A stretch of 64,000 nt of DNA, from positions 14,139,835 through 14,203,834 of the forward strand of contig NC_003076.8 of assembly GCF_000001735.4 (NCBI RefSeq), written 5' to 3'. The notes beneath the pieces are model-generated. The model did not search any database. It was not told the origin of the DNA and worked only from the letters and a program-made list of their open reading frames with translations. The position numbers were made by a program, and so were the translations under genes. How positions within the stretch are numbered: position 1 is the stretch's first letter; every line of letters starts with the position of its first letter. Below are positions 18,470 through 42,158 of this stretch, one piece after another. The stretch comes from Arabidopsis thaliana (lineage: Eukaryota; Streptophyta; Magnoliopsida; Brassicales; Brassicaceae).

Positions 18470-18478
18470 TATCTATTA
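18470..18478 (+). repeat. 9-bp target-site duplication of the giant MULE, left copy
   Basis: tatctatta here and at 42150-42158, each abutting one terminus of the element. Confidence 0.75.
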
Positions 18479-18961
18479 GAGAATATTACACGTAGAGGCA
18501 CTATTTCAAAACTTTGGACACAATAGAACACTTTAAAACCATTAATCACTTTAACTCAGTATAATTACCCCTTTACCCTGAAATCGTTGGTTTAATAAAA
18601 CATAACAAATTTAGCCGGTTTTCTCTAATCCGGTTCCGGTTGAACCACGTATTATCAGTTACTGTCTGGGTTAAATCTTCATTTACCAACACGATCGTAA
18701 AAAAACGCTTACCCAGTAAAAACCCTAATTTACTGTATCTCCACATCGCGACTGCTCCCAATCCGGCGACTACTCCGAATCCGGCGACTCCTCCGTCGCT
18801 GTCCATCAATCCGCCACTCAGGCGAGTCTATACTCGCTGAATAAAAACCAAATACTAATTTCCCCCAAATCTCTGCAATAATCGAATTTGATTTCGATTT
18901 ATTGTTCTCGTAAGCCAGATTCATTAGCATTCCAGTTGATTCTCACTGATCAGAATACTCA

Positions 18962-21900
18962 ATGGAAGGTACAAATCGTTTCCAATCATCTTATTTTGGT
19001 CCAATTAACTCAGAAGAAGAAATCCTCTTCTCGCTGAATGTTTCTGCAATTTTTTTTTTGAATCGAAAAATGTTTCCCAATTGTTTGTAGCTAAGCACAG
19101 ACGTTTGTGGTTTTAGTAGTTTGTACAAATACTCGTTAATCTAATCGTTATCTCTTGAACTAGTTTCTTGCCAATGAACAGGGTCGACATCTCAGGAACC
19201 ATCTTCTCAGTGGGATTTAAACCTTCCAAATAGACTCTTCGCCACCGATCATTATCCGAGGGGAAGGCTGAACGTATACTCTAGACCGGATATTCTATCC
19301 TTTATCAAGAAGGTTTTTGATGGGACAGAGGAATTAGATTTTATACTTCAGTCTTGCTTTGGTCCTTTATTCCATTTGCCAGTTAGTAGGGTTGCGACTC
19401 CGGGTAAGGTCATTCATGCCTTGTTATGTAGACAGTTGCTTACTAAGAAAAAGTATGAGTTTTGGACAGTTTTTGGTGGACACCCAATGAGATTTTCACT
19501 ACTAGAATTTGCTTCCGTGACTGGCTTACCTTGTGGGGAGTTTCCTGACGAGTATGACCCTGAAGATTCTCCTGTTTATGATGATGGCAAGAAGAGCTAC
19601 TGGAATGAGTTAATTGGTCCAGACAAGACGGTTACATTAGGGGATATATCTGCCATGCTAACCAAGAAACGCAGTAAACTGTCTTCTGACCACAAACTGA
19701 AGCTCGCTTTCCTACTCATTGTAGATGGTGTCCTCATAGCATCTAACCAAACCGGTAGGCCTACATTTAAATATGTAGAGATGTTGGCAGATTTAGAGAA
19801 ATTCCTTTCGTTTCCTTGGGGTAGAGAGTCGTTTATGAAGACGGTTGAAGCGATGACACCCGAGAAACGGATTCTCGCTAAGAGCACCGGTAAAAGACAG
19901 CTCACAAACGATCCTATTCAGAATTTGGTGAAGCAATTGCAGCAGATCACATTCCGTCTTAAAGGTTTCCCGCATGCCCTGCAGCTCTTAGCTTTTCGAA
20001 ACATACCTGGAATGGTGGATTTGCTGAAGTTTGATGACACCTCCTTGACAATCCTTCATTGGAAGAATTTAACTCATCCAACACAACTAATTACTCTTCC
20101 TCAGATTCACTCTTTAGAAAGCAACCTTAAGGTTTTTTTCTAACCCAAAAGTTTTTATATGGTCTCTATAATATTCTCTTTCTATATATCCAGTCTTCTT
20201 TACTAATAATAACATTCTATTTTTCAACAGAGACCTGTGGATCCGCTTATAGGTGAAGATATTAATGTTGACCAAAGTTGGGCAGAGTGGGATGACGAGG
20301 TGAAAGACAGGAAAGTTTCTTACATGAATGGTTTGATACTGACAGCTCATCAATTCAAAAAAAGTGATTGGCCAGGAGGTGATGCTACATTGCCATCAAT
20401 TAAAATTCCAAAGGAGAAGTCTTCTGTTGTTCACAAAAAGCATATTGTGGATCGTAAGAAGAGACTACGGGTGAAGTCTGACCCTCCCAAATCCAAGCAT
20501 AGTTATTCAACTCGTTTTAATCAAGTTGTAAGGCTATCTGATGATGAGAAGTCTAGGTTGATCGTTGATCTACAAAACAAGGTGGAAGAGCTATCAAATC
20601 GTGTAATGAAGCTTGAAAAGAAAAGAAAAACTGTCACCTTCAAGCGGTCCAGAAATTTGGCTTTCGGTTTTGTTCCATCATCTTCTAGATCAAAGCGCAA
20701 GAAGTCATTGGAGGTACCTACTCAATCTCAAGCCTCTGAGGTAATCAAGATTTCAAACAGTTTATAATATTTGAACCTTATCATTTACTTATACATTTTT
20801 CAAGTTTTAACGCATAACAAAACTTTTATTTTCCTCATAGAATCCATCTCATTCACACACGCTGTCTGATGAACAGAATGAGGATTTTGATATTGAGGTC
20901 TGCTGTTTTAACCTTATGTGTTTATTGTTTATTCTGTTACCACATCTATATGTACTTAATCAATTTTTATCAATCTTGCTAGCATCAATCTGAGCAAAAG
21001 GATGATTCATGGGATGTTTCTCCTCCTCTTTCTCACCCTTCTACGATAGTCCAAGATGATGAATTCAAGAAGTTTCAAGATGAATCCATTGATAGAACAA
21101 CTTTGACAAACACGGTTAGTGTAATATTTAATTTCCAATATCTCTTTGGTAGAATTGTTTACGTCAAAATATTTTGTTTCAGGTGATTACTGATGACCCC
21201 ATGGATGTCAATCATACTCCACATGAATCACAGGATTCTGAAAAGGATGATGCAACAGAGGACAATCCAATTTATGACACTGGTGCCAAAGATCCAAATG
21301 ACAATGAACCAGATGATGAGGGAAAAATCCAGGTACTTTTATAAATACAAACACAACACATCATACACTTTATTTAACAGTTTATAGGATCTGACACATT
21401 TGACTATTCTACTTTACAATCAGTTTGATTCAAGTGCAAACGTAAGCAACAAAAAACAATCACCTCTCGAGGAACACAATATTATGGAGGTAAGTTAATA
21501 CATCATTTGGTGCAACACATCGGAAATGGTTGGTGCATCACAGACCGTAAACATAATAATTGCACATCTGCTTAGTTATTATGGACAGGATTTTGTGGAT
21601 ACTTACGAGTGTACTTCAACATTCAGGTCAATTTGGAGGCGGGTGAAGCATCTCAATCAGTGGTGGAGCCGCAACCCGATGACCCTATGGAGGTATACAT
21701 TTTCAACTAGTTCCTTGATTTATTGGACACCGGTGAGGGATGCTTCATCACTCAGTCCTTGTCCAAAAAAATATTTACAGGCCAATTCTCCAGACTGTAA
21801 TTCTCCACAGGGCAATGCAGCATCTCAGTGCATTCTAAAAGATCCAAATGGCCATGAAGCAGATGATGAGGGGAAAATCCAGGTACAAAAATACAAACAC

Positions 21901-24689
21901 AACACATCAAACAATTTATTTTACAGGTTATAGATTCTCACAAAATTGACTATTGTACTTTACAATCAGTTTGATTCAAGTGCAAACCTAAGCCAAAAAG
22001 AACAATCTCCTCTCGAGCAAGACAATATTATGGAGGTAAGCTTATATATAAACCAAATTATTGTCAGAACTTTATTAAACCAAATTATTGTCATAGCCCT
22101 TAAGACATATCTGTTTGTAATTCATAATTCAGGAAACCTTGGAGACGGTTGAAGCTTCTCATTCAGTGTTGGAGACGCAACCCGAAGAAAACATTGACGA
22201 TGATCATATGACGGAGGTAAGCTAATACATAATTTGATTTAACACATTGGATTTAGTCCTTAATATAAATAATGACTCTTGTGCATAGTTATTGTGGACA
22301 TGATTTTGTGGATACTTACTAGTGTACTTCAACATTCAGGTTACTTTGGAGTCAGCTGCAACATCTCACTCAGTGGAACTACCGCAACCCGATGACCCTA
22401 TGGAGGTATACATTTTTAACTAGTTCCTTGCTTTATTTGACACTGGAGAGGGATGCTTCTTCTATCAGATCTTTTCCAAAACAACATTTATAAGCCAATT
22501 CTCAACAGGGCAATGCAGCATCTCATTCATTGATAGAGACTCAACCAGAAGTCAACATCGACGGTGATTCTATGAAGGTATACTGTAACAATCATCATCA
22601 AGTTTTATGTGTTGTGGTTCTTGTGTAATTGGACATGATTTTCTAGTTACTTCATAAAATGTAGGCAAAATTTCTTTTATTTATTCTAACTAGCTACATG
22701 TCTACATCAACATTCAGGTTACTTTGGAGATGCCTGCATCATCGCATTCAGTGTCGGAGGCTCAACCCGAAGAAAAGATTGGCAATGATCCTATGGAGGT
22801 ATACATTTCTAACTAGTTTCAACTAATGATTTACATTCATTGATTTATTGGAGATTGTAGAGGTTTGATGCATCTCTCAGGCATTATGCAACAAACATTT
22901 ATAGAAAAATGCTCCCCATGTTCACTATTATAATCGACAGGATTTTGTGTATACCTTAACATTTGCAGATAATATTATCTTATGTTTTTCTCACCATCTT
23001 TTTGTGTACTGCAACTTTCAGGACACCATGGAGACGCCTCCAGCAGCTCATTCATTGACTGGGTTTGTAATGTTCTCCAAAAAGAAGGTCATCCTTATGT
23101 CTAAACTAAATTAGGCTTGCATGTTCACTTTTATATTGGATTGGAGTTTGTGTATTCGAAATAATTTCCAGGTTATATATTCTTATGTTTTTCTCACCAT
23201 CAGGTCACCATGGAGACGGCTGCAGCAATTCATTCAGGAGTTTGTAAAGACAACACTGATCCTATCAAGGTATAACATGTATCATAATTTTCTGGTATGT
23301 TTTAATGGACAGCTCTGTTTGGATTGTTTTTAAAATTATCTTCTTATTCCAGGCAATGGTTGTGTTTGTGAAGCCTGTATTTCATACAAGTTCCAAAGCT
23401 GACAAAGAGCCCCAATCATCTCCCACACATAGTCCCAATATTGTGGGTACAAGGAACGAGGTATTGCGTAACATATACTGACTTTTGTTAATAATGACTA
23501 GGGAATGATTTTTCAGTTTTGTAACAGCTTGTCCCTATTGGTCTGATATTATATCTTCCTGTACAGGATAATAACTCAGAACACTCTAACTCTACTGCCC
23601 GGGAACCAGATCAATATTTTGAGTTATCTGATTCATCCCCGGCGCGTAACAGAGAAAAACCAAATCTCTCCCAAGCTGAAGCACGTCTCGTAGCCGAGTT
23701 CACATCTCAACCAATACTTGAGACACAAGCACTTTTACCAACACTAAAAAAAGCGGAGATTCACAGTTTGTCAAAACCCTCTCGAGCTCTCCAAATATGT
23801 ATGGTTATCATTCATTTTTCTTATTTCCACAACATTCATCATCAAGTTCATCACTAATGCTGTTTTTTTACCTCATAGTGAACATCTAACCAAGTGTGGA
23901 TTCCTTATTTCCAACAAATTCTTCGTCGAACTTGCCAAACCTCAGCAATGGGTTTCAACCCTGGTATGTAGTCCACTATATTTACCTTAGTACAAATTAA
24001 CCTGTTAACAAGAGATACTAATGTGTAAATGTTTTTTTTCCTAGCACATGGAGGTTTTGGTGTCATTACTTTCTCGGAGGCTCAGAACTACACTTGAGAA
24101 TCATCGTTCTGCTTTTGTTGATCCATGGTTCACAAGCCATCTACAAGCTAAATTCAGAGCCTTCAACGCTGCGAAGGTGAAATCACGTGTTCGTTGGTCA
24201 GAGGACATGCAACGCTTCATCAAAGGATCCAAAACTGAATGGTTCAAGGACATAAATACAATTTACGCACCCATGATATGGAATGATTGCCACTGGGTTG
24301 GTCTTTCAATCAATCTTGGCATATGGAGCGTTGAAATTCTTGACCTAAATACAGACCTCTACGACGACGCTAAGGTAAAAAGATGCATTGAGCCAGTAGT
24401 CAATCTTTTGCCCCACCTCATCCAAAGGTACTGTACGCCAGAGTTTTCTGAGAATCACGGTCTTCAACCGTTTGGCTGGAGTCGAATTGATGGTATCTAC
24501 AAGAATTTGCGGAGTGGTGACTGTGGCCCGGTTGCCATGAAGTTCCTCGAGATCCAGGCAAGTGATAAACTCCCAGATAAAATGGCTGAAATTACTGACA
24601 AACACGTCGACGCGTTTAGGCGTCAATATGCCATGGACATATATAAACAATGTGTCTGCCCACTCTATTCATCTAATGTTTTTGACTAG
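18962..24689 (+). CDS. DUF1985 plus Ulp1 cysteine protease (KIUP-type, about 20 exons, about 1,200 aa)
   Basis: SUMO/ubiquitin-like protease gene of the kind carried by Kaonashi MULEs. Exon 1 is tiny (18962-18968). Exon 2 (19182-20131) holds DUF1985 (VFGGHPMRFSLLEFASVTGL). Exon 3 (20231-20740) is basic with a coiled coil. Then come 20841-20897, 20983-21114, 21183-21332, a run of small exons from 21424 to 23269, 23353-23460, 23567 to about 23798, 23880-23963 and 24045-24689. The last exon is the C48 peptidase with His at 24291 (CHWVGL), Asp at 24342 (LDLN) and Cys at 24522 (SGDCGP), so the triad is present. All but one junction keep frame with standard sites; 23798/23880 does not fit cleanly. 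A telo-box-like aaaccctaat lies in the leader at about 18719. Intact or nearly so. Confidence 0.8.
21424..23269 (+). repeat. Tandem array of amplified small exons with their introns
   Basis: Exons 21424-21489, 21627-21692, 21970-22035, 22340-22405, 23022-23087 and 23204-23269 are exactly 66 nt. Between them lie related exons of 102, 84, 69 and 81 nt (21781-21882, 22133-22216, 22509-22577, 22718-22798). All are phase 0. They encode variants of VTLETxAASHSVxExQPEE followed by an acidic xDPME ending at the donor. Introns after 21692 and 22405 are also similar (gtatacatt..aactagttcctt), so exon and intron were duplicated together. Confidence 0.8.
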
Positions 24690-24796
24690 TTATCGAATGC
24701 CACCCTACAAATCTGTTGTAATATAAACGTTGATTCCGCCTTCTTTGAATGCTTATAACTCTGGATGATATAAATATGTTTTTTGTTTTTCTTAAC

Positions 24797-25960
24797 CATA
24801 TCGATAATCTTATCTCTATATTGCTGTTGAATGTTTTAGTGGTTTGTATCATATTATTTGTTTGTTCCATCCATAACAACATTTTTTTCAAGTGCATCTA
24901 ACATTTGATATCAGTTAACAATGCGAAGAAAAATAAATAATTTTGCGTATTTTGAACTATTGTTTATTTGGTAAATCATTCTAGCTAATTATGTTTACAA
25001 ATACGTTAAAACTTAATATAAATGTCATCCAGTGATAATGAATTATCCAATCAGATAAACGAATTAATACAGTTATATTGTGGATGGATTCTTATGGATA
25101 CATTATCAATTATCTTTCTCTTTTACCATGAAAGACAAATCTAAAATTCCTTCTACCGGAAATATTGAGATATTGTTGTATAGCGGGAATATTCCCACCA
25201 TCAGGTTTTAAACTAGGATTTTTATGGTTCGAGCATAATTCGGGGACATTATGGTTAGAGCACAATTATAGTTAGATCATTATCTTTTTTTTTATTTTTA
25301 TTTTTATTTTTTATTATCACGTTTATTATGAGAAGATAATTATGGTTAGCTCTCCAGTGTTTAAGTTTCTTCCATTCCCCATTCCTACAAAATAATCTTA
25401 TCTCTATATTGTTGTTGAATGTTTTAGTGGTTTGTATCATATTATTTGTTTGTTCCATCCATAACCCCATTTATTTTCAAGTTCATCTAACATTTATATC
25501 AGTTAACAATGTGAAGAGAAATAAATAATTTTGAGTATTTTGAACTATTGTTGATTTGTAAATCATTCGAGCTAATTATGTTTACAAATACGTTAAAACC
25601 AGTCATAGTGAATTATTCAATCAGACAAACGAATTAATACAGTTATGTTGTGGATGGATTAATATGGATACATTAACAATTATCTTTCTCTTTCACCATG
25701 AAAGACAAATCTAAAATTCCTTCTACGGGAAATATTGAGATACTGTTGTATAACGTGAATATTCCCACAATCAGGTTTAAAAATGGGATTATTATGGTTC
25801 GAGACAAATCCGGGGACATTATGGTTAGAGAACAATTATAGTTAGAGCATTATCCCTTTTTTTTTTAGTTTTAATTATCACGTTTATTATGATAAGATAA
25901 TTATGGTTAGCTCTCAAGTGTTGAGCATAATTATATACAGTTACTAAACACTCACGATTT
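24797..25960. repeat. Two tandem copies (A, B) of an approx. 550-bp non-coding repeat
   Basis: Copy A is about 24797-25390 and copy B about 25391-25960. Both start taatcttatctctatattg and include gttccatccataac, a ggaatattccc block and ttatggttagag. The same pair recurs at 27960-28960. Copy A holds a perfect 12-bp palindrome gggaatattccc near 25183. No coding potential is seen. Confidence 0.75.
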
Positions 25961-26757
25961 GTAATGCGTAGGTATAAAACATATAAATATTTATTGAGTA
26001 TTGGATGCTAATTAGGTTTTCCATTTATACTGCTTATGTTCAACCAGGGTCACGCAAGAATGTCTGAGAAAAGGTACAAGTAGATGAAAATCAAATATTT
26101 CTGTTTTCTATCCAAGTATAGTTGACCATCAGATCATATCCAAACGTTTGATTCAAATAGATCTATTTGTAAGATTAGTTCGATTTACATGATTCAATAT
26201 TGTAAGATTCCCCAATCAGTAATATGTTGAAAAATTAGTAATTGTGAGCAAATTATTTTTCAGATCATGTCAGATTTACAAAGTGCATGTAAGGTTAGAA
26301 GTTTGTTGATTCTGAATAAAAAATGTGGACATTTATTGAATCGGATAATATAGAATAGAGAATATCGACTAATACATGTGATTTCATATTATATAGCTTA
26401 GTTTTTAATATTAAAAAACTTTTTACAACTTGGTAATGAAATGGATGTCTCTGAATATTTACATGTAGATAGGAAATGAATATTTATATGTCTATCCACA
26501 AGCCCCAGACCAATCAGATATAACCAATCTTAAGTATTTTTGGAATTAGTATAGTCGGAAAATTTTGCTATGCATGCTCCAAAATCGAAAGAGTCCCTAT
26601 AAGTTATGATAAACGAGAAAGATGTTCACTAGTTTAAACGTTAAATACAAGAGAGAAATACAACTTCATAATAAGATTACATTAATAAACTAGATAAAAG
26701 AGGGAAACAGAAGAGATAGTTATATTCTGAAAGTGGGTAACTCATGTTTTTAAATAA
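25961..26757. other. Non-coding spacer inside the MULE
   Basis: AT-rich, with no open frame, RNA gene or clear repeat unit recognised. Confidence 0.5.
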
Positions 26758-26758
26758 A

Positions 26759-27546
26759 TTAGGAAAGCAAAAGGATGTCTCTGAAGAGGAAGAAGTAGAC
26801 GCAATGTGAACATCTCTCACCATTATATTCGTTGTAAAATTCATGGATGACCCAACAGTCTGGATAATCCTCATAATGAAAGAGCTCAGCGTAAGATCCG
26901 AATCGTTTTGGTTCCAAATCAGAAATGTGGTCAATTAGTGTCTTGGCCATGATATCTACATCTGTAAAACACTTGTTCTCTCGTTTGAAAGTATTAAACG
27001 CGTCTAATACTTCATTATCTGCGCAGCGGTTTAGCGCAATGTAAAGAAGCTTGGCTATAGGAATGACATCTTTACAATCATTCAATAATGAAATGGCGCC
27101 TTTCATGTCGAGAGAACAGAACCCTAGCCTCAAGCTCAGGAGATACATAGCGTAAGGGTTTCTTTTTGCAAGACATTTGGAGTAGAATGAGAAGTGAACA
27201 GAGTCGGGTGAAGACATGTTGATGAAGTCAGGGCTTTTATCTAAACGAACTCGGGATAGTGTCTCGACAGAGAAAGCTGCAGATTTCCCTTCATGACCAG
27301 ATTTAATCCAGTTTTTCAGAGCCTCAATTCCTTCTTCTGAAACGTGGCTAACAATTAGTGCGAGAATTGGTTCCGGAATGTATAATCTTGCAATCTTCCT
27401 CTGTTGACAACGAAGACGAAAGTTTATAGAAGTTACATATACTTTGTGGAATGAATGTAAACTATATTGTTTAAAAAAATGAAAAATTTAACCTGTGTGT
27501 CGCTAGATTGTGTGATAGAGTGTAGACATTTGGATGATGTACTCAT
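26759..27546 (-). CDS. F-box-like family protein, cargo copy 1 (2 exons, 231 aa)
   Basis: Exon 1 is 27493-27546 (18 codons) and exon 2 is 26759-27400, read on the minus strand with a short GT..AG intron. The N-terminal half (LYIPEPILALIVSHVSEEGI, ALKNWIKSG, then VETLSRVRLDKS) is an F-box-like motif of the Brassicaceae At2g35280-type family. The middle resembles Sel1-like helical repeats (NPYAMYLLSLRLGFCSLDMKG). The tail (YPDCWVIHEFYNEYNGERC) has conserved Cys. Fully open. It is the only one of the five relatives on the minus strand. Function unknown; a role in SCF complexes would be inference from the F-box likeness. Confidence 0.7.
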
Positions 27547-27959
27547 TTTGTCAATTTGTTGCGAATAACGAAAGAGTAAGATGTGATGGAGAGAGAAGTT
27601 TTAGTACTGATCAAAACGGTTTAGAAATGAGTAATAAAAACAGAGTAATTAATTGGATGTTTCTCTTAATAGGTCACAATCGTGAGGGATGAAGCTTAGT
27701 GGGGAGTACGGGTTCAGTTAATATTCACTATATATTAACTCTAAATATAAAAGCTACCACTTGAATTCCATTAAACCAATTTCATATACAAAAACGCAAG
27801 TCATAGTTCTGAAACAACTCAAATCATTTGTATAATAATTGTGACACCTTTTAGTTGTTGATTATTAAGCTTTTGAAAAACGGTTTATAGGGATGGCAAA
27901 TGATTTGAGTTAGTTCATAATTAGCTCGAATGATTTACAAATCAACAACACAGTTTACA

Positions 27960-28960
27960 AACAGAGGTCAAAATTAATATTTTTGTGTATTTTGAACTAT
28001 TGTTGATTTGTAAATCTTAATATAAATGTCATCCAGTCATAGTGAATTATTCAATCAGACAAACGAATTAATACAGTTATGTTGTGAATGGATTCATATG
28101 GATACATTAACAATTATCTTTCTCTTTCAACATGAAAGATAAATCTAAAATTCCTTCTACCGGAAATATTGAGATACTGTTGTATAGCGGGAATATTCCC
28201 ACCATCAGGTTTTAAACTAGGATTTTTATGGTTCGAGCATAATTCGGGGACATTATGGTTAGAGCACAATTATAGTTAGATCATTATCCTTTTTTATTTT
28301 ATTTTTATTTTTTATTATCACGTTTATTATGAGAAGATAATTATGGTTAGCTCTCCAGTGTTTAAGTTTCTTCCATTCCCCATTCCTACAAAATAATCTT
28401 ATCTCTATATTGCTGTTGAATGTTTTAGTGGTTTGTATCATATTATTTGTTTGTTCCATCCATAACCCCATTTATTTTCAAGTTCATCTAACATTTATAT
28501 CAGTTAACAATGCGAAGAGAAATAAATAATTTTGAGTATTTTGAACTATTGTTGATTTGTAAATCATTCGAGCTAATTATGTTTACAAATACGTTAAAAC
28601 CAGTCATAGTGAATTATTCAATCAGACAAACGAATTAATACAGTTATGTTGTGGATGAATTAATATGGATATATTAACAATTATCTTTCTCTTTCACCAT
28701 GAAAGACAAATCTAAAATTCCTTCTACGGGAAATATTGAGAAACTGTTGTATAGCGGGAATATTCCCACAATCAGGTTTAAAACTGGGATTATTATGGTT
28801 CGAGACAAATCCGGGGACATTATGGTTAGAGCACAATTATAGTTAGATCATTATCCTTTTTTTTTTAGTTTTATTTTTTTTAGTTTTAATTATAATCGTT
28901 TATTATAGATAATTATCCAGTGTTGAGCATAATTATATACAGTTACTAAACACTCACGAT
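27960..28960. repeat. Second pair of copies (C, D) of the 550-bp non-coding repeat
   Basis: Copy C (about 27960-28393, 5'-shortened) and copy D (about 28394-28960) closely match copies A and B at 24797-25960. The palindrome gggaatattccc recurs in both. They lie directly upstream of the F-box-like gene at 29019, so they may act as its promoter region. Confidence 0.75.
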
Positions 28961-29018
28961 TTGTTTAACTTTCTTCCATTATCCATTCCATCCGTTTCAA
29001 CTTGAAAACAAAGAAATT

Positions 29019-29528
29019 ATGCTCAAGTTAGCAAAAGACAACAAGAATGAATTACCATCTGGTGTCAAAAAGGTTGTTCAGCATAAATAAAACTACTTAG
29101 TTTTCTATGTTTTACATTCATTGTAAACAAAAACTTATAGTCTGCATATGTTTTTTTTTTTTTTATCTCAGGTTGCTGCTTTTCCTGAAATTTTCATCCC
29201 GGCACCAATACTTGCTAAAATTGTTAGCTACGTTGCCGAAGATGGCGTGGATGCTTTGAAACCCTTGGTTATGGCTGGTCCAACATTTAAGGCTGCAGTG
29301 TATTCCAAGGAAACACTGATTTGTGTCCGCATAGACAAATCTCGTTATTTCATGTGGTGGTCCATGCCGCATTCCATTTATTATCATTTCTTCACAAAAT
29401 GTCTTGAAGCCAACAATCCACATGCTTTGAAAGCAATAATGTACAAACCAATAGCATATGAAAATTTTGCTGCCAAATGCTATAGATCTACCTTATGGGC
29501 GGAGCTGTATGGAGAGCATGAAGGATAG
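29019..29528 (+). CDS. F-box-like family protein, cargo copy 2 (2 exons, 136 aa)
   Basis: Exon 1 is 29019-29072, 18 codons as in copy 1, and exon 2 is 29172-29528. The protein keeps the F-box-like part (FIPAPILAKIVSYVAEDGVD, then SKETLICVRIDKS) and the start of the helical region (SIYYHFFTKCLEANNPHAL). It ends early at LYGEHEG, so it is shorter than copy 1 and lacks the Cys-rich tail. It is closest to copy 3 at 31824. Intact as read. Function unknown. Confidence 0.65.
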
Positions 29529-30143
29529 GAATCAAAGAAAGGAACAGATAGTCCCAAACTTTGAAAGACAATGTGGTTCCTTTTTCATTTCTGATGTTCT
29601 GCTTTTTGTTTTCATTTAATCCTATGAAAAGTCAAATCCCATAAAAATTTGTTCGTTCAGCATAAATGATTTCCAATTGATAACCCTTTACGTTTGTTTT
29701 GGTCATATACGTTTGGTCACCTCGTTATAATAATTTTCAAACGGACATTTCTCTTTGGACTTGTTCTCCTGGACAGAACATATATTTAGCATAACAATTA
29801 CAGATAAATAACTCGACTATAAACCACTGCAGACGAATTATATATCTAATATTACAACCACCACCAAATCAATACGTAATATTCTCAAATAAATATGTCA
29901 TAGAGCATAACGACAACGGATCGTTCAAGTAAGCATCCCTTGGATGTTAAAAGTTACATCTTTTCCTCGCAGACGAACTTACACCGTTTTGGCTTCAATC
30001 AGAGGAACACTTTCACTTGCTATAAATACCTCTCCTATTCTTGACTCTATCAAGACAACCCAATCGCAAAAGAAAAACAATATCCTCTGTTTTCGTTTCT
30101 ATAATTCTCTGTTTTTCGTTACTCTTCACTTCTCCTTTTCACG
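29529..30143. other. Spacer and promoter of the RPA-like gene
   Basis: Non-coding. A TATA box lies at 30021-30028. Nothing else is recognised. Confidence 0.55.
30021..30028 (+). promoter_or_regulatory. TATA box of the RPA-like gene
   Basis: tataaata about 115 bp upstream of the ATG at 30144, in a suitable AT-rich plant promoter setting. Confidence 0.6.
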
Positions 30144-31151: not shown

Positions 31152-31823
31152 TAGAAAGATGATTAGAACTATCTCATCTTCTTCTATTTTTTTTCAAAGT
31201 TGTAATATTTTTATAAATGATAAGATATATTAATAAAAAAAGTTATTTCTTTGTTCAAAATTTCTCATTTGTAATAATTGTAACAAATATTTTATTAAGT
31301 AGTACAATAGGAATACGGTGTATAAATTAAGTGCACCTTACTAAGGAACGGTTATATCAAGATTACAATCTTTTTATCAGAAATTAGCAAATTGCTTGAG
31401 TTTTAAAAGGAATAAAATTGGTGATCTGAAAATATTGTTTCCCAACATATCTAATTTCTCAACATATATTTGTTTACATGACTGATAGGGTGGATTGTTG
31501 AAACTTTTAGTTGAAATCCATAAGAAATTACTATCGTGGATTGTTGTTTATGGATAGGTTAATAAATTACTTTCCTGTCTTTTATACCCTAATTATAAAC
31601 GATGTATTCTCTTACTTTTTTCCGCATCTGATTTTAGTTCCCTCCTCAACATTGAGAAACTGATTTATAGCGGGACAATTTACCACCTATTATAAATTGT
31701 TTAATATAACCGCAGAAAAACTTTAAACTACTCTTTCCTTAATAATCTATATAAACACCCAACATTCATTAATGTTTTTCCCATTACCCATTTCTTCAGT
31801 TAAAACCAAAAAACAGAGAAATT
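31152..31823. other. Spacer and promoter of F-box-like copy 3
   Basis: Non-coding. It shares short blocks with copies A-D (gcgggacaatttaccacc near 31670). A TATA box, tatataaa, lies at 31748-31755, about 70 bp before the ATG. Confidence 0.55.
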
Positions 31824-32446
31824 ATGCAGAAGTTTACGAAGATAAGCAACAATGAAACATCATCTGCCTCAGATGTGAAAATGGTTGTTCGTCCAAACCC
31901 AAAGTACTTAGTATTCTACAGTTTTAACTACTACTTTAATAAAAATACTAACAATCTCTTTCCTTTTTTTTCCAACAGGTTGCTGCTATCCCAGAAGTTT
32001 ACTTGCCGGCCCCGCTGCTTGCTAAAATTGTTAGCTACGTTGCAGAATCTGGTGTTGATTCTTTGAAATCCTTTGTTAAGGCTGGTCCGTTATTTAAAGC
32101 GGCTGTCTATTCCAAGGAAACACTAAGTTGTGTCCGCCTTGACAGATCTTGGTATTTTATGTGGTGGTCAATGCCTCATTCCATCTATTATCATTTCTTT
32201 ACAAAATGTCTTGACGCCAACAATCCACATGCTTTAACTGCTGTATTATACAAAGGAATAGCATACGAGAATTTGGTTGCTGAATGCTATAGATCTAGTT
32301 TATGGATGGAACCTTATGGAGAGGACGGAGGATGGGTACAAATAGATGGAGCTTACTGGGCTCAACCCCGAGTTCGAGAGAGTATTCCACGTTGCTCCCG
32401 TTGCAAATCTCGGGCACACAAAAGATCTAATTGTCCAAAATATTGA
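31824..32446 (+). CDS. F-box-like family protein with C-terminal CCHC zinc knuckle, cargo copy 3 (2 exons, 175 aa)
   Basis: Exon 1 is 31824-31883 and exon 2 is 31979-32446. The F-box-like part (LPAPLLAKIVSYVAESGVD, then SKETLSCVRLDRS) and helical part match copy 2 closely. After WMEPYGEDGG the protein continues to a knuckle CSRCKSRAHKRSNC, with the spacing C-x2-C-x4-H-x4-C. This is the same pattern as the last exon of mudrA at 37440-37529 (CSRCKGLGHNRTSC). Other copies here lack it. Fully open. Function unknown; the knuckle suggests nucleic-acid or protein binding. Confidence 0.7.
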
Positions 32447-33018
32447 AAGACAATGTTTTAATACTGTGTTATCCATCATTATCTGTCTATCTACATGTTT
32501 CTATTTTTCTAAAACTTGTTTTTCTGTTTTTAAGCTTCTGCTAGTCTGTCTTTTTAATGTTATATTCTCGTTTGCTATTCAATCTTCGTTTATATATTTG
32601 CTAAGGCTTATCCATCTTATTTTGTGGTTGGTGTTTCATGATTACAGTCTATGTATTTATTACCTGATTGTTTATGGAGAACTTGTTCCCCCATAAATGA
32701 GTCCCTGTTCGATTGCATGTTAAAAGACATCCACGTCTATATTTTATATATCATAAAGTTGTGTCTATTTGGACAACAAAATTTGGACACACAATGATTT
32801 ATTTTGGACATGAGAAAACTTACTCACATGTCTAATTTTTAAAAAATTTTGTAGGACTCACGACGTCGCCACTAACCCATCTCACCACCACACCCCAACC
32901 TCTTCAATGTGACAAAGTATTAGGGTTCCCATTCTATCACGATCTCAAAGTTACAAAAATTTTCATTAATAGATCGCTATTTGTACACCTTTAGTACTAT
33001 CCGAATCGATAATCCAAA

Positions 33019-33901
33019 ATGCCCAAAATCGTCTGCGAAAAAGGCAAATGTATCCACCCTCAACCAATGGCACCTACCAGACATTTCTGGCGACCCCCAA
33101 GTGCCCTTGCACCTATTAGGGGAAATCAATTTGCCGTCCATCCTCCTCGTCAAGCTTTGGTTCAATTCCACCTACAGGTAATGTTTAACTACTAATCTTT
33201 GCTATCTGAACAATCACCCGAATTTAGGTTTAACATCTGGAATTATTTTATATCAGCCTCCTCCGTTCTCTGATTTCCACATGCCTGAACACGTAGCTGC
33301 TAAAATAGTAAGCTTAGTTTCAGAGGACGGTGTTGATATGTTAAAGGCTTGGATTCAATCAGGACCAGATGGCAAAGCCGCTGTTTTTTCCAGGGAAACT
33401 CTTTCTTCTGTTCGACTAGATAAGTCCCCTGTATTCATTCACATGGCTCATGAATCTTCTAGTTATCACATGTTTTACACAAAATGCCTAGCCTTAAAAA
33501 ATCCCTATGCACTATATCTTTAGAGTTTAGTGTTGGCGTTTCATATGTGTGAGCTCCAGGAAGCAATTGCTATTTTGGATGGTATTAAAGACGTGTTCCC
33601 ACATGCTGGTCTACTTTACATCATGCTCCATAGTTGCGCTGAATCAATCCCGTGGGAATTTTATAGTATGTACAAGCGAAGGTACTACAAATTTAGTGAA
33701 GTCGACTTATTCGCAGATAAGCTAATGTTCCATATCAACGAGGTTGGTCCACGTCGCCAAGGGACATACAAAAATTCCTGGGAGTTTGAGGATTACGGTG
33801 AGTGTTGGTCGGACCATCAGAACCTCAATGAGTATGAGGGACAGTGGTGTAACACATGTATTTACTTTTACCTCTCCCAAGAAGTAGCCCTTATTTCATA
33901 A
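33019..33901 (+). pseudogene. F-box-like family protein, cargo copy 4, one premature TAG
   Basis: Exon 1 33019-33177 encodes a Pro/Arg-rich 53-residue leader unlike the other copies. Exon 2 33257-33901 has the F-box-like part (MPEHVAAKIVSLVSEDGVDM), the helical part and the full tail (WEFEDYGECWSDHQNLNEYE, then CNTCIYFYL). A TAG at 33521-33523 interrupts a place where relatives have Gln or His (YALYLxSL). The frame is otherwise open to 33901. A C-to-T change from CAG would explain it. Confidence 0.65.
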
Positions 33902-34432
33902 GTACATTTTAGTTCAGTTCTTCTTTTTGTTCTTCATATTTGCGGCAAACTTAAGAATCTATGATTTTTTTTATGGGATTTTATATATGAAGTTATTATG
34001 TGTGAAGTTACCTTACGATATTAAGGTAAGTAGTACTTCTCTACTATTTTTCACAATTATAAAGAGAACAAGTCCTCGACCGTTACCTCGTCTCAAACAA
34101 TTTATGGAACTGATTTTATAACTGCACCCATTCTCCCCACTAAGCTTTATCCCTCTCGAATATCTATATTTTATAGAAACTTTCATTTCCTTTCTCCCTT
34201 TATAACCCGTTCTGCGCAGTACAAACATTAGAGATTCTCCAAACCCCGCCGATCCAGATTTTCCTCCTCAGTAATACATCCATCCACCTTCCGCTGCAAT
34301 CGTTGTTGTACCAAATCGTGGACACACTGCAAAACAGGTTTTAGTTCGCAACTAAACAAACAAATATGATTCCTTTACTTATTCCTAAAATTAATCATTC
34401 CTCTAACTTATCATCGGCCCTTTTAGCAGAAA

Positions 34433-35074
34433 ATGAAGAATTCCAGGTTATATATTCCGGAACCAATACTTGCTCTAATCGTTAGCTACGTTTCGGAACA
34501 AGGAATAGACGCTTTAAAAAATTGGATTAAAGCTGGTCATGTTGGGAAATTAGCAGCTTTCTCTGACGAAACGCTAACCTGAGTGCGTCTAGACAAAAGC
34601 CCACACTTCATCTACATGTCTTCCTATAACTCTCTTTATTTCTCTTTCTACTCCAAATGTCTAGAAAAAAGCAACCCCTACGCATTGTATCTCCATAGCT
34701 TGAGTCTCGGATTCCGCTGCTTCGACCTGTGTGGAGCCATTTCAATTTTGAGTACCTGTAAAGATAGATTTCCTTTAGCCGAACTACTCTACATTGCTCT
34801 AAACCGTTGCGCAGGTATCGAACTCATTGATGATTTCAATAGTTTCAATCGCGAGAACAAGTGTTTCTTTGATGTATCCTTGATGGCAAACAAACTTATC
34901 GGCCACATTTCTGCTTCGGAACCTAAATGTTTCGGATCTTACTCCGAGACCTTTCTTTACGAGGAATATCCTGACTGCTGGCTAATACATGAGCTTAACA
35001 ATGAATTTAACGGAGAAAGATGTTCACAATGCCTCTACTTCTACCTCTTCCGAGACATCCTTCTGTTTTCCTAG
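34433..35074 (+). pseudogene. F-box-like family protein, cargo copy 5, one premature TGA
   Basis: Open from ATG 34433 (LYIPEPILALIVSYVSEQGID) except for TGA at 34580-34582, where copy 1 has Arg (TLSRVRLDKS). A CGA-to-TGA change fits. The rest is well preserved to the stop (YPDCWLIHELNNEFNGERC, then LFRDILLFS). It is the closest relative of copy 1. An upstream exon may end at about 34337 (cag before gtttta), but its start is not clear. Confidence 0.65.
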
Positions 35075-35286
35075 TTTAGTGAGATACACATCCTGTTCCA
35101 GCTTTATTATGTTTTCATCTTTCACGTTTATCTTTCGTTTAGTCTAATGTGTTTGGTTATTCGTAATCTCTACTAATTCTAATCCGAGTTTAATCACACG
35201 TAATTAAGACTCCTTGTAATTATTCACATGTTAGTAAAACCCATTTTACCAGTTTCTGATACAACTCCTTCTCTTACATAGTAGAC

Positions 35287-37330
35287 AAAAGATAATAGAA
35301 AATTGGATAGTTCTATCTGTATACAATTACGTTGAATAGAGTTTTGTATCATAAAATATATTAATAATTGGCGCAATCAAGCTTTAATTTGATTCAAATC
35401 AACAAAAATACCTTTACTCATTACATATAGTAATGGCTTTACAAAAAATAATCTAAAAAAACAACTACAATTACTAAAAATGGATTATAACTACTTTTCC
35501 TGTTAAAACATCATCTCCATATGGATAAGAGTTTATGGATAGTTAAACGGGATTGCACAGATTTGCGGTTTAGCAAGATATGCTAATTATAGACTATTTT
35601 AACACAATAAATAAACATATATACTTATATTTGGTACATCAAGAACTAGGTTTACAGAAACGGAAAAACTTTTATGGGAATGTCTTACAATAAGAAATGA
35701 AATATTTTATAAAAACATGGAAACTAGTTATAGATCATACATTTATTAACAACTTAAATTCAAAAATAAAATTTCTCATTGTATTAGATCAACTTGTCCT
35801 ATTATGACCCAATCTAAAAAAAAACAACTACACGTACTCAAAATGGATTAGAACTACTTTACCTGTTTAAAAAACATCTCCATATGGATATGGCTTTATG
35901 GATAAGCAAACGGTATTGCAGAGGATTGCGATACAATCAGGATATAAAATTAGCAATAACTAATTATAAGAACTGAAATATTTTACAAAAAACATAGCAA
36001 CTAGTTTTACAATAAGAACTGAAATATTTTACAAAAACATGGCAACTAGTTATAGATCATACATTTATTAACAACTTAAATTCAAAAATACAATTTCTCA
36101 TTGGATTAGATCAACTTGTCCTGTTATGCCCCAATCTAAAAAAAACAAATACAAGTACTCAAAATGGATTAGAACTACTTTACCTGTTAAAAAAACATAT
36201 CCATATGGATACGGCTTTATGGATAAGCAAACGGTATTGCAGATGTTTGCGATACAATCAGGGTATGTTTCAGTAATAACTAATTATAAGAACTGAAATA
36301 TTTTACACAAAAGATAATAGAAAATTGGATAGTTCTATCTGTATACAATTACGTTGAATAGAGATTTGTATCATAAAATATATTAATAATTGGTGCAATC
36401 AAGCTTTACTTTGAATCAAATCAACAAAAATACCTTTAATCATTACATATAGTAATGGGTTTACAAAAAATAATCTAAAAAAACAACTACAATTACTAAA
36501 AATATATTATAACTACTTTTCTTGTTAAAACATCATCTCCATATGGATAAGAGTTTATGGATAGTTAAACGGGATTGCACAGATTTGCGGTTTAGCAAGA
36601 TATGCTAATTATAGACTATTTTAACACAATAAATAAACATATATACTTATATTTGGTACATCAAGAACTAGGTTTACAGAAACGGAAAAACATTTATGGG
36701 AATATCTTACAATAAGAAATGAAATATTTTACAAAAACATGGAAACTAGTTATAGATCATACATTAATTAACAACTTAAATTCAAAAATAAAATTTCTCA
36801 TTGTATTAGATCAACTTGTCCTGTTATGACCCAATCTAAAAAAAACAACTACACGTACTCAAAATGGATTAGAACTACTTTACCTGTTTAAAAAACATCT
36901 CCATATGGATATGGCTTTATGGATAAGCAAACGGTATTGCAGAGGATTGCGATAGAATCAGGATATAAAATCAGCAATAACTAATTATAAGAACTGAAAT
37001 ATTTTACAAAAAACAGAGCAACTAGTTTTACAATAAGAACTGAAATATTTTACAAAAACATGGCAACTAGTTATAGATCATACATTTATTAACAACTTAA
37101 ATTCAAATATACAATTTCTCATTGGATTAGATCAACTTGTCCTGTTATGACCCAATCTAAAAAAATCAACTACAAGTACTCAAAATGGATTAGAACTACA
37201 TTACCTGTTAAAAAGCATCTCCATATGGATACGGCTTTATGGATAAGCAAACGGTATTGCAGAGATTTGCGATACAATCAAGATATGTTTCAGCAATAAC
37301 TAATTATAAGAACTGAAATATTTTACAAAA
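35287..37330. repeat. Tandem direct duplication of about 1,022 bp with nested approx. 320-bp repeats
   Basis: Sequence starting gataatagaaaattggatag at 35291 recurs at 36313, an offset of 1,022 bp, and the match runs to about 37330. Within each copy are 320-bp sub-repeats carrying tccatatggatacggctt and gaactgaaatattttac. Sub-repeats at about 35773, 36096, 36795 and 37117 include sequence matching the end of the mudrA last exon (antisense cttgtcctgttatgaccc), spaced about 320 bp. Confidence 0.85.
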
Positions 37331-37439
37331 AACATAACAACTAGTTTTACAATAAGAACTGAAATATTTTACAAAAAAAAATAGCAACTAGTTAATCATC
37401 ATACATATATTAACAACTAAAATTCGAAAACACAATTTC

Positions 37440-40371
37440 TCAAATTGGATTAGAACAACTTGTCCTGTTATGACCCAATCCTTTGCAGCGTGAGCACCTG
37501 TTCTGCTGCGTCCTTCCTGTCTTACGTTTCTACGTTTACCATGTTAACCAACATGTTGCATTAGTTTGGTTAGTTTTTCAAAAGCTTAGACAATGTACGA
37601 GATTTACAAAATATTTATCTAACCTTATATTCCCCTGTTGATGGTATTCTTGCTACCTTAGGCCTCCTTGATGGTCTCCGAGTATATGGTGGAAGCATGG
37701 AACGGTGTGGGAGCTCTTCGGGTATGTCTTCTTCTTTGCCATTTGCTTCAGGGAATACTGCTCCTTTGTAACTCGCAACCCATGAGTGTGGTTTGAAATA
37801 ATCATCAACTAAAGCCTTGTACGAGAGGTTAATGCTATTGGCAGCCACCAAAGCATGACCACATGGTATCTTCAGTTTATCATATCTCTTGCAGGTGCAC
37901 TGCTTCTTTTCTAGATCAACAACATTGCTACCACCTAGCTTCCCAACTACCTCGTAGCTCCAGCTGGTTACCCTACCAACCTTGCTTCCACTTGATGTTG
38001 TCAAGTTTTTTGAAATTTGCTTGTCAACCTCCGGAGGTACTGGACCTGAATGTGCTTGTGACTTCTTCCGACGCGCGTTGAACCAACGTGTCAACATAGA
38101 CCTAATAAATCTTAGGAATTCCACAATATGTGACGATCTCCCCTTGAACAACGCCTTGTTTAACGTTTCAGCAATATTGCTAGTCATCAGATTGAAACGC
38201 TGGCCAGGGAAATATAGCCTTGTCCAATGAGCCATCCCTACGTCGTGTAGATACTTTATGCAAAGGGGGTTAATGGCATTAATCTGATTATAAAGCGTTT
38301 TAAACTTTCCACTCGTAAACTCATATCCAGCGTTTTTCACTAACTGCGTCAATCCTCTGTTCTTGAACCTTGCTTGTATATTCCTACATAGGTGAATAAT
38401 ACATGCACCATGATGTGCTTGCGGAAATACCTTCTTCACCCCTACCTTTATCGATTCGTGCCTATCTGATAATATAGTGAGTGTGTTGCTGTCAGCTATT
38501 ATCCTCTCCAACTTTGTAAAGAACCAAGTCCATGCATCATCGTTCTCGCTATCCACCACAGCAAATGCGAGTGGATACACTTGGAAGTTTGCATCTTGAC
38601 CACTTGCTGTGAGTAAAACCCCCTTGTATTTTCCTTTCAAATGTGTTCCATCCACAACCAAAACCCTTCTCAGATGCTTAAAACCTTGTATTGAAGCCCC
38701 AAAAGCTAAAAACATATATAAAAACCTCTCTTTCCTTTCATCTTCAATATCAGGTTCGGTTTCTATATGTGTTATCGTCCCTGGATTTGTTAACTTCAGA
38801 AGATGCAAATATTCAGCCAATTTGCTATAAGACTCTTCATCACTCCCGCCAACATCTGTTATAGCTGATTCCCTAGCTCTCCAACACTTTTTGTATGACG
38901 CAGAAACCCTCAAATCTTCTAGTACAAGTTGCTGAAGATCCATTGGAACAGGACCAGCAGAAGCTTCACTGTATTTTGCCTTAAATACAGATGCAATCAC
39001 CTTTGACGTTGCTTTCTTCATGTACTGCCTTCTAGTATCAACCAAACATGTGTGTTGAAGCTGCGCTTTCTTAATTTCATAGTAACCTGTGCCATTCATT
39101 ACAGTGGCCAATATTCTCCAATCACATTTCTCATCTGAGCAACTGAGAACAAAATAATTCCATTTTGTTCTTGTTTGCTTGAAATGAAACTGATTCTTTA
39201 TCGCAAATATAGCCAATCCTATTTGGCAATCTTCTTTGCTCGCATACACTTTTCCCTGGTATATACCTTTACCATCATCATCAATGTCCAAATCAGGTAA
39301 GTTATCAACTTCATACTCGATGTCCTCAAACAAAGGTGGGATGTCCAACTCCTCGTCATCCACTTCCTCCAACTTTTTGACCTCATTACTCGTTTCCTGA
39401 AAGCTTCCAACTCCACCGACCATCTTTCCTTTCATAACTTGTGGGGTCTTTTTTGTATGCTCTGTCTTTATACTTTCGCCAGCCCCATTCACATATATAG
39501 CGTGATCAAAGACTCCGTTGCCAGTACAGAAAACCACTTCATCCGGATTGGAGCCCACAACCTTATTGTTAGACCCGTACCTTACATCTAAACCTCCTGT
39601 TGCCATCAACTCATTAGCATTGGAGCCACCATAATCATCTGTTAAGAAATTTGACCAAAACTCCTTATCATAACCGCCACAGGGCATACTATCTTCAGGT
39701 TTTTCCGTGACTGCTTCAACTTCCTCTGTATCGTTATCAACGAAAAATAACTTTTCAACATCATTGTTAAAACCTTCGTTATCAGTATCATTCCGTGACG
39801 ATTTATGCCCACTGTTACTTCCTATGTTTGCTTCTGCTTGTTCCAATTCCTCCATGAATTCGTCATCACGAGGGGTCAACACAATTGTAGGAGTTTTTGA
39901 ACCCACAGACGATATATCGCGAACAGATGTGACACCACTTTTAGGCGTTTTTGAACCACACTCTTCCTCCAAACTGCTTTGATGCGGTCGTTTAGTGCTA
40001 CTATCTCCTCGTGTATCAAAACTTTGTAAATCTTCCTCCATTTCTTCAAACTTCACAAACAAATTAAGACCTCTGTTTTCTCTAAGTGCACTTAGATAAT
40101 ACAGAAGGCCAACCTCGCTTGTAACCAAAACTGGAGGAGTCTTCTCCTTTGTTGTGAACATATCCTTATCCGGTGCAGCATAACTCAACAAAGGATTTAC
40201 ACCAATCATTCCGAACTCTTTCGAAATCGCTGACATAAACGCTCCCAGTGTCATTCCCTCAGAAATTGGAACAACCCTAGAAAACAGTTTGTTACAGATC
40301 TCCAGTTTCCACTCTCCATTCGACGAACAAACCCAATCTCCACAAATTACCATACAAAACTCATCCATCAA
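37440..40371 (-). CDS. mudrA-type MULE transposase (2 exons, 945 aa)
   Basis: Transposase of the giant MULE. Exon 1 is 37624-40371 and exon 2 is 37440-37529 (minus strand), joined by a GT..AG intron that skips the early TAG. A PB1-like N-terminus comes first, then a long acidic linker and the DNA-binding zinc cluster (C411, C416, H440, C442). The catalytic core follows with D574 (VVDGTHLKG), D636 (LSDRHESI) and E735 (SNIAETLNKAL). The SWIM finger is at 825-839 (CTCKRYDKLKIPCGH). Exon 2 adds a CCHC knuckle, C928, C931, H936, C941. No stop or frameshift is visible, so it may be competent. It lies near the right end and is transcribed inward. Confidence 0.9.
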
Positions 40372-41519
40372 TCCCTAACCAAAACAAAACAGAGCATTCA
40401 CGTTAATTACCTAATAGCGTAATTGAGTATCGTAAACGTGTTACGACTTTTAAGGATATTTTTTCATTGTACCTTTGTCGACATCGAAATAATGACTGCA
40501 TTACAACCGTCTGTAATCGTCAAGTAACTCCTTTCTTTGTGTGAAGATCTCAACCGTCTCTTTATGCACTGACTGGATACGTTTTTTTTAGATACCGCTA
40601 CAAACCTTAGCAAGATAACCGGTTAACTAATTGATTGATCATATTGGACACTCAACAATACACAAGTATGAAACACTCATCAATTTTACATTTTTTTTTT
40701 GGATTTATTGGACATTATATTGTGGACATAATATTGTGGATATATAGAACACAATCAGTATAATGGAAAGTTAAAAATCAGCAAACAAAAACTAAATCAA
40801 ACCAAAACACATAAAACATTGTGGGAAAAATTTTAAATAATCAAATAAAATCTTCAATTCATTTTTTGCATGTATACACTCAAGTAGAGCTGAACATTTT
40901 GGGAGAAGCATCAATATGATAGAAGACCAAATTATTAGGAATCCTCTTTTCCCTACAACAAAAACAGATACATCACTAACCAATATAAATCATGGTTTTC
41001 TTTTTTATATTTTTTGGGTTTGTCTAAAAAAGTCCAAGAAGGAACTAAGGTCAAAAACATGAAAGATATAATTTACATCCCTTTACATCAAACATAATCA
41101 ATATAACAGTTTAAACATTCGACGATACTGGACAATTATCAGTGAACAAATATGATAAAATAGTTGGACATACAGAAGTGGACATTAATATTTTGCAGTT
41201 TATCTTTTTTTGGACTTGATATGTTGGATACTAGTTTTTTTGCCGAAACAATTTCTTAAATTTTTTCCATACGAGTTTCTTGTTTAATGGTGCTCAAGTC
41301 AAACCTCCAGCACCAACCTGTAGTAAATGCAGTTATCGATGGAGATGATATCATTTACAGAGACTACGTGGATATCAGTATCGCTGTTGGTACCCTCCAC
41401 TCTAGTTATTCTAAACCTTTCAGATAACTACAACTTCCATCATATTAAGATTTTCAAAGTCTGTAAAAAAATGGCTATTGCAGGCCGATACTAATTCAGG
41501 GGGAGATTCCTAATCGACG
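40372..41519. other. Upstream region of mudrA inside the MULE
   Basis: AT-rich and non-coding. It has several copies of a ttggacat-type motif (about 40640-41190). Near 41310 the string encoding PAPTCSKC on the plus strand may be a decayed zinc knuckle from another MULE. Confidence 0.45.
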
Positions 41520-41812
41520 CAAATAGGCCTCTCCAACAAATCTCTCTTTCTCTCTGTCACACTCTTTATCACTCTCTGCTATCGTAGATCGGAGAATCTC
41601 CTCTGAGAGCTCTAATCTCTCAGTAATCTTCACCGCGTGTCCGGATCTAATTTTCCTGTAAGTAATCTCATTTTCATGATTTATCTGCGATTTCTTCTCT
41701 TGATGCTAATTTTCCTAATTTTCCCCGAAGAATCGAGACCATTATGTGGAGGAGAATCGTTTCATCGCATCTTAAATCCATCTCCGCCGTCGGGTCCTGC
41801 GCGGCTCCGTCA
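41520..41812 (+). pseudogene. Captured 5' end of a COX5b-like gene (UTR, UTR intron, 23 codons)
   Basis: A CT-rich leader (from about 41520) is followed by a clean intron (gtaagt at 41658, ag at 41730) and then an ATG at 41744. This ATG opens a mitochondrial-type presequence, MWRRIVSSHLKSISAVG followed by SCAAPS, to 41812. From memory this matches the start of Arabidopsis cytochrome c oxidase subunit 5b (COX5b-2). Beyond it the frame diverges and soon ends, so only the 5' end was captured. It lies within 700 bp of the MULE end. A BLAST match would settle it. Confidence 0.6.
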
Positions 41813-42149
41813 GATTTGATTTTCGATATAGCCTTTAGCTATCAGTGTTACAATCAATTATCACTGTGATATATTTATCACTGTGAGAATTAACAACCAT
41901 CGACATTGAGATAATTTCACTCGGCGAAGGTAACTTCCTTTTCTCATCTGTAAATATCAACTGTCGATTTATTAGAAGGAAACCAAATCAAAACAAACAT
42001 TTCTAACCGGTTAAGTAAATTTTTGGTTTAGATGAGTGGGGATATAATTGTCCATTTATTTTTCAAAAACAAGGAAAAGTGCCTTGTACGTGAGAAGTGC
42101 CTCAAAAAGAATAAAAGTTTGTAGAAGTGCCTAAACAAGTCCAATTCCC

Positions 42150-42158
42150 TATCTATTA
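42150..42158 (+). repeat. 9-bp target-site duplication of the giant MULE, right copy
   Basis: tatctatta, identical to 18470-18478. Confidence 0.75.

Follow-up and report, generated by a model that had tools for sequence, protein, structure and literature searches.

We analysed a 64,000-nucleotide stretch of Arabidopsis thaliana chromosome 5 (C5:14139835-14203834; chromosomes are written C1 to C5 below), which we call the window. Within it lies a single Mutator-like element (MULE) of 23,671 bp that carries eight genes (Table 1). These are an open mudrA-like transposase gene (M), a gene with DUF1985 and Ulp1-like C48 peptidase exons (the latter is the ULP exon, U), an RPA-like gene (R) and five members of a family that we refer to as F-like (F1 to F5). 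An earlier sequence-only reading of this DNA had proposed that the whole interval is one transposition unit and that its additional genes are unusual cargo. The data presented below uphold the first of these proposals and change the second.

Table 1. Features of the element, in window coordinates
Feature	Position	Strand	Evidence or remark
Whole element	18479..42149		End families, duplications, 21.3-kb sibling, sites without the element
Target site duplication, 9 bp, left copy	18470..18478	+	TATCTATTA
Target site duplication, 9 bp, right copy	42150..42158	+	TATCTATTA
Left end	18479..18900	+	97-98% identity to four other copies
DUF1985 exon, Kaonashi/VANC-type gene	19178..20140	+	Pfam DUF1985, E 8.8e-40
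Probable further exon of the DUF1985-C48 gene	20213..20764	+	Open frame, 98% identity in copies C1a and C4a (see text)
Repeats separating the DUF1985 exon from the C48 exon; may be tandem peptide exons	21343..22801	+	Direct repeat families D8, D11, D16
Ulp1-like C48 peptidase exon, Kaonashi/VANC-type gene	24045..24686	+	Pfam Peptidase_C48, E 5.4e-59
0.3-kb repeat, four copies around F1	25007..28877		D2; arranged in two pairs, spacing about 0.57 kb in each
F1, F-box/TPR-like gene	26762..27546	-	Comparison with gene model P0001 gives exons 27493-27546 and 26762-27400
F2, F-like open frame	29127..29525	+	Sequence comparison
RPA-like (DUF223) gene	30105..31148	+	Split over three or more open pieces; provisional exon borders
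F3, F-like open frame	31952..32443	+	C-terminal C-x2-C-x4-H-x4-C motif; no Pfam match
F4, F-like gene	33182..33898	+	Sequence comparison; one in-frame stop
F5, F-like gene	34427..35071	+	Sequence comparison; one in-frame stop
Direct/tandem repeat array	35282..37480		D3, D5, D6, D10, D13; unit about 0.32 kb, six CCATATGG sites
mudrA-like transposase	37615..40374	-	Open frame, 919 amino acids; MULE, DBD_Tnp_Mut and SWIM matches
Captured host fragment, 98 bp	41714..41811	+	99% identity to C1:30170932-30171028
Right end	41740..42149		Genome matches of the right-end family

Ends and genes of the element

VANDAL MULEs make 9-bp duplications, and an identical 9-bp word does stand at both limits of the interval. 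Two random 9-mers of the window would be equal with P = 1.8e-5. The word alone is weak evidence, because TATCTATTA is found five times in the window on both strands together, against 1.7 copies expected, and the weight comes from the ends. Positions 18479 and 42149 are the outermost bases of a left-end family with 21 matches in the genome and of a right-end family with 40, a few of which are to inner parts of the query. We fetched 12 copies with both ends, ranging in size from 1.6 to 23.7 kb and leaving out some shorter copies that were seen as pairs. A perfect 9-bp duplication flanks 11 of the 12 (nine at once and two more after their ends had been re-set by eye), and the sole copy lacking one is C4:7030312-7032554. 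The fetched DNA also holds another three left ends and another two right ends that are unpaired. The matches to each end, together with the paired copies, place both ends of the window copy in one family rather than in different ones. When inverted, these two ends agree at 24 of 40 positions, which none of 10,000 shuffles equalled; the terminal inverted repeats (TIRs) are therefore short and imperfect, and there are no long ones.

The mudrA gene enters from the right, as had been read, and is open. The ULP-like gene that reads in from the left was also found, as plus-strand DUF1985 and Peptidase_C48 exons about 4 kb apart, and what had been called a protease gene now looks like a Kaonashi/VANC-type gene in which DUF1985 and C48 would share a putative single transcript. 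From the coordinates, the C48 domain is oriented against mudrA; this is the arrangement by which Kaonashi MULEs are defined (PMC2528002). The short imperfect ends, the 9-bp duplications, a MULE transposase with SWIM domain and the reversed C48 domain all support assignment to the VANDAL/Kaonashi kind of non-TIR MULE, in agreement with the sequence-only reading. The RPA-like gene was likewise recognized correctly: its first two pieces match Pfam DUF223 (E 3.8e-23 and 2e-16), and the gene is conserved in sibling copies. The possibility that this gene is a separate Helitron insertion was considered and rejected, as it moves together with the rest of the element and reappears between ULP and mudrA elsewhere.

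The predicted structure of an F1-type protein has helices at its N-terminus, and a TPR-like fold is predicted for the F proteins. F-box genes of the At2g35280/At1g67623 kind, which we take to be among the genome matches to the Pfam profile TPR_27, match that profile, to which the F family bears a possible resemblance; the window-type F proteins differ from these genes in scoring below the TPR_27 cut-off and in having no F-box profile match. A sequence search for solved structures of the F family gave none up to E 10, and no named F-box protein was recovered when proteins were searched more deeply with alignment A3. A VIA-align comparison of the model showed no F-box chain among the 50 rows listed, which is neutral either way. 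The terminal motif of F3 resembles a CCHC zinc knuckle and is also present in the A. halleri protein P0041, with Pfam scores that are below cut-off or absent. By eye, UniRef entry Q9FHK2 seems to be a fusion of parts of F4 and F5.

Movement as a single unit

A sibling of 21,310 bp on chromosome 1 (C1:12818273-12839582, here C1a) has its own duplication, ATTAAAATA, and the gene order of the window copy minus F2. It aligns with the window copy over a left block of 9.3 kb (98.3% identity), the F region of 7.4 kb (97.6%) and a right block of 5.4 kb (96.6%), and the corrected divergence K in the left, middle and right blocks is 0.0116, 0.0113 and 0.0118. With a substitution rate of 7e-9, this corresponds to about 0.8 million years. 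A 17.9-kb sibling (C5:11001026-11018940, here C5a) also has its own duplication and contains most of the blocks, namely U with a frame shift, F2, the RPA-like gene, an F3/F4 hybrid (F3 start, F4 end), F5 and mudrA, without F1. A copy whose left end is at C4:10553980 (C4a) retains that end and the genes through F5, without F2, and an older, decayed copy at C2:4.60-4.62 Mb has U, F2, the RPA-like gene, F3, F4 and mudrA.

Comparison of the same-side flanks of the window copy, C1a and C5a revealed no match. On opposite sides, the window copy has short pieces in common with both siblings: two with C1a, of 150 bp (86%) and 113 bp (71%), and one with C5a, of 27 bp. When its two flanks were joined and compared with the genome, 14 places matched, of which two are the flanks themselves, five are partial and seven are unbroken over the junction, some of these alignments having missing bases. 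One of the seven was inspected base by base and is gapless at the junction. The C1a site has one junction-spanning place as well (C3:15025979-15026280, 70% identity). These element-free sites are paralogous places, not the orthologous locus, and, running straight across the junction, they give no ground for refuting the one-unit proposal. From the equal divergence of the three blocks, the unrelated same-side flanks and the junction-spanning sites, we conclude that 18479-42149 moved as a single transposition unit, as had been proposed.

The four gene kinds reside together across the genome

Sequence comparison identified 43 loci with F homologues, and the addition of weaker TPR_27 matches (reaching E 0.009) raised this number to 65. 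A ULP exon lies within 5 kb of 41 of the 65, whereas in 1000 shifted placements the count averaged 1.7 and never exceeded 6. For mudrA within 12 kb the count is 32 (shifted mean 1.9, maximum 8) and for an RPA exon within 12 kb it is 40 (mean 3.3, maximum 10). At least one of the three is present within 12 kb at 53 of the 65 loci, and all three at 25. For F, these counts used 91 of 94 listed matches and ten more, drawn from two lists of 101 and 78; for ULP, mudrA, RPA and TPR_27 they used 88 of 100, 44 of 64, 72 of 75 and 47 of 47, the mudrA list being the best 50 scored of 542 candidates. The matches that were left out seem to be mostly further pieces of loci already entered. The 13 best TPR_27 matches, which from their positions we take to be host F-box genes, were kept apart from the 65 loci; none of these 13 has ULP or mudrA nearby and one has RPA. 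The TPR_27 family search was also weakly positive in one of 14 control genomes.

We tabulated the elements in which all four gene kinds occur together. These are the window copy and 25 other loci, taken from the 25 F loci above and one locus joined from two, and in every one of the 26 ULP and mudrA are convergent. Thirteen are compact, with 4-9 kb between ULP and mudrA, and all 13 have the order U+ F+(1-2) R- M-. In another six the order is U+ F- F+ R+ F+ F+ M-. Three more, with spans of 20-23 kb, are of mixed order, and two of them carry two RPA copies. The number of F copies is five in the window copy, four in C1a and three in two other elements. The F gene of the compact elements passes the curated TPR_27 cut-off in six of the 13 and falls below it in seven, where it is known from a sub-cut-off TPR_27 match or a weak protein match and its position supports the call. 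Elements short of one kind exist, such as C1:9006553-9010387, which lacks F, and C5:10437927-10443231, which has no ULP match. These data alter the view of the F-like and RPA-like genes as the unusual cargo of one element: the same kinds of gene occupy the same interval at 25 other loci and, because that interval holds both in many related elements, they look resident.

The association was also examined from the side of DUF1985, using the best 150 of 297 DUF1985 candidates, 88 of 100 ULP matches and 70 of 75 RPA matches. F is present within 14 kb at 33 of 67 DUF1985 loci that have ULP within 8 kb versus 9 of 83 that do not (p 1.9e-7), and RPA within 20 kb at 32 of 67 versus 17 of 83 (p 5e-4). 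Because of this difference we conclude that F accompanies about half of the Kaonashi-type loci, not DUF1985 loci generally. At the DUF1985 locus C2:10003472, presumably VANC21 from its position, there is no nearby ULP, F or RPA match. A further locus, C5:7028147-7034649, has DUF1985, ULP and two F/TPR_27 matches in open frames, with no mudrA among the matches listed, and is possibly a retained remnant.

Selection and phylogeny of the F genes

In the comparison of the window copy with the old copy at C2:4.60-4.62 Mb, which for the F genes covers F2 and F4, the ratio of nonsynonymous to synonymous differences per site (pN/pS) is 0.36 for the two together (p 8e-6), 0.30 for F4 (p 2e-5) and 0.51 for F2 (p 0.09). 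The corresponding values are 0.54 for mudrA (p 3e-4) and 0.54 for ULP (p 0.06). Between paralogues, the ratio of substitution rates (dN/dS) is 0.20 for F1/F5 and 0.27 for F2/F3, F4 being too distant to count. The older comparisons, with the old copy and among paralogues, therefore show purifying selection, which is not seen between young copies.

A tree built from 24 of the available F-type sequences, rooted for drawing only, separates the window genes into {F1,F5}, {F4} and {F2,F3}. The F2/F3 side, apart from F1/F4/F5, includes the A. halleri protein P0041 (support 99/96), and the other side includes the A. arenosa and A. halleri proteins P0022 and P0027. Since proteins from relatives of A. 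thaliana are found on either side, the split looks older than this species.

Interpretation

We think it very probable that this is a Mutator-like element with degenerate ends, inserted as a unit, in which F and RPA are ancestral genes of the lineage and F was multiplied in a clade of giant elements. The best account of its size is that a Kaonashi/VANDAL-type MULE was enlarged by multiplying its own genes; F and RPA would then be ancestral to the lineage rather than recent pick-ups.

Several observations weigh against this interpretation. Twelve of the 65 F loci have no ULP, mudrA or RPA nearby, 34 of the 67 DUF1985 loci with ULP within 8 kb have no F within 14 kb, and the shifted null overstates the number of independent cases, because the loci are copies related by transposition. 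At the site inspected base by base the duplicated word agrees in only 4 of its 9 bases, so the site demonstrates that the flanks are continuous and not that the word is present. A search of the element for the known motifs of VANC21 and VANC6 found none, a difference from VANDAL21 and VANDAL6. Between the window copy and C1a, all F genes together show 3 synonymous and 19 nonsynonymous differences (pN/pS 1.68, p 0.6), and mudrA has a pN/pS of 0.75 (p 0.57); such young copies are too similar to judge and, if anything, have an excess of amino-acid change. Finally, in-frame stops break F4 and F5, and none of 23 F family members matches a Pfam F-box profile. Thus, of the five F-box-like genes in the sequence-only reading, the five F-like genes stand, two of them broken, and their F-box identity is plausible but only partly supported.

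If the interpretation is correct, the mudrA protein would act on the degenerate ends, and the DUF1985-C48 protein would bind noncoding repeat arrays and so keep the element unmethylated, as VANC proteins do. In the giant clade, duplication would have raised the number of F genes to four or five, and the RPA-like gene would have shifted to the other strand. The RPA-like protein may handle single-stranded DNA in transposition or repair, a suggestion to which we give somewhat less than an even chance. More tentatively, the F proteins might engage the host ubiquitin/SUMO machinery, either as adaptors or as decoys, in support of this escape from methylation. In combination, F, RPA and DUF1985-C48 might serve as an anti-silencing kit with a ubiquitin-pathway adaptor.

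Among other explanations, the one that survives best also treats these as old resident genes but regards the F array as a by-product, with unequal exchange expanding the copies and only one needing to work. The variation in F copy number from 1 to 5 among elements and the stops in F4 and F5 favor this idea, but the three F groups remain separate in the tree and six elements retain the F- F+ R+ F+ F+ order; we consider it possible, although doubtful. The fullest functional proposal is a conserved counter-silencing kit, encoded by the lineage itself, of a sequence-specific VANC-type protein with a SUMO-protease-like domain, F-box-like adaptors by which the host ubiquitin ligase would be redirected, and an RPA-like protein, with the adaptors multiplied in the giant elements as in an arms race, and in this complete form it seems unlikely.

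Another explanation is recent transduplication, in which F and RPA would be fresh captures from the host with no role for the element, comparable to the cargo of Pack-MULEs. Pack-MULEs are MULEs without a transposase of their own. Like the window copy they contain host-derived sequence, but the window copy has an open transposase and its extra genes are common to a lineage. Pack-MULEs are mentioned in PMC13317346. There is one clear captured host fragment at the right end, the young copies show no constraint and two F copies are broken, as this explanation would have it. However, these gene kinds are found in the corresponding interval even of elements that are only about 40% identical in mudrA, the A. 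halleri protein lies inside the F2/F3 side of the tree with the support given above, and constraint is evident in the older comparisons. Moreover, no near-identical single-copy host donor outside MULEs is present among the F and RPA matches listed. We therefore judge recent capture to be improbable.

A composite, built from a smaller MULE by successive insertions of an F-box cluster and an RPA-carrying Helitron, with 9-mers that match by chance, would be compatible with the 1.6 to 23.7 kb spanned by same-end copies and with the many repeats inside the interval. It is rejected as highly improbable in view of the duplications, the end statistics, the 21.3-kb sibling with the same blocks at equal divergence, the 17.9-kb sibling with most blocks and its own duplication, the junction-spanning sites that lack everything in between, and the joint recurrence of the four gene kinds in other elements. 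The least credible alternative is a segmental duplication in which a host gene cluster was copied together with a MULE lying in it by chance. It would suit the many copies near centromeres and the pieces that the window copy shares with C1a and C5a on opposite-side flanks, but is rejected because similarity ends at the element ends, leaving same-side flanks unmatched, and the 9-bp duplications vary from site to site.

Relation to known elements

Kaonashi (KI) MULEs and VANDALs bearing the KIU gene resemble the window copy in being non-TIR, with C48 (ULP) opposed to mudrA, and the window copy has DUF1985 as VANC genes do (PMC13317346, PMC2528002 and PMC6117577). KI MULEs have three coding genes, KIU among them, and KIU-bearing VANDALs escape methylation (PMC13317346). 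The window copy departs from the Kaonashi description in its 23.7-kb length and in its F-like and RPA-like genes, the other KI genes being unnamed in the available text. VANDAL21/Hi and VANDAL6, which have anti-silencing VANC proteins, are, like the window copy, VANDAL MULEs with a DUF1985 gene and noncoding tandem repeats (PMC5735166 and PMC10398659). A literature search for F-box or DUF223 genes with Mutator-like, VANDAL or DUF1985 elements found no paper, and F-box or RPA genes in MULEs are not named in the available parts of PMC5735166, PMC13317346, PMC6446971, PMC10398659, PMC7385966, PMC2528002, PMC6117577 and PMC7001039; we claim no priority for these genes.

What appeared to be a one-off giant transposon is thus better described as one of a lineage whose members share genes in addition to transposase and VANC/KIU. 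Should SKP1-like proteins be bound by the F proteins, these would be transposons with their own ubiquitin-ligase adaptors, and a host-transposon conflict would be directly testable in Arabidopsis. A caution also follows: gene models of the F-box-like and RPA-like kinds that lie close to centromeres may belong to transposons.

Repeats, captured sequence and surroundings

The word CCATATGG occurs six times in the array at 35282-37480 and nowhere else in the window, and is a candidate target motif for the VANC-type protein of this family. The 98-bp captured fragment, presumably a piece of the COX5b gene, would encode an N-terminus beginning MWRRIVSS and was found in three of five sibling copies tested.

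An Rfam scan of the window at gathering scores gave nothing. Direct repeats at 13344-14483 and 49424-50365, about 36 kb apart and each with arrays of a 28-bp unit, flank the element. Pieces of a Plant_tran-kind transposase are present at 16850-17119, which passes the Pfam cut-off, and, by eye, at 45563-46102. Also by eye, 3922-8780 is a non-LTR (LINE-like) element that has frames for an endonuclease and a reverse transcriptase, and cytochrome P450-like frames lie to the right of the element at 55516-56733.

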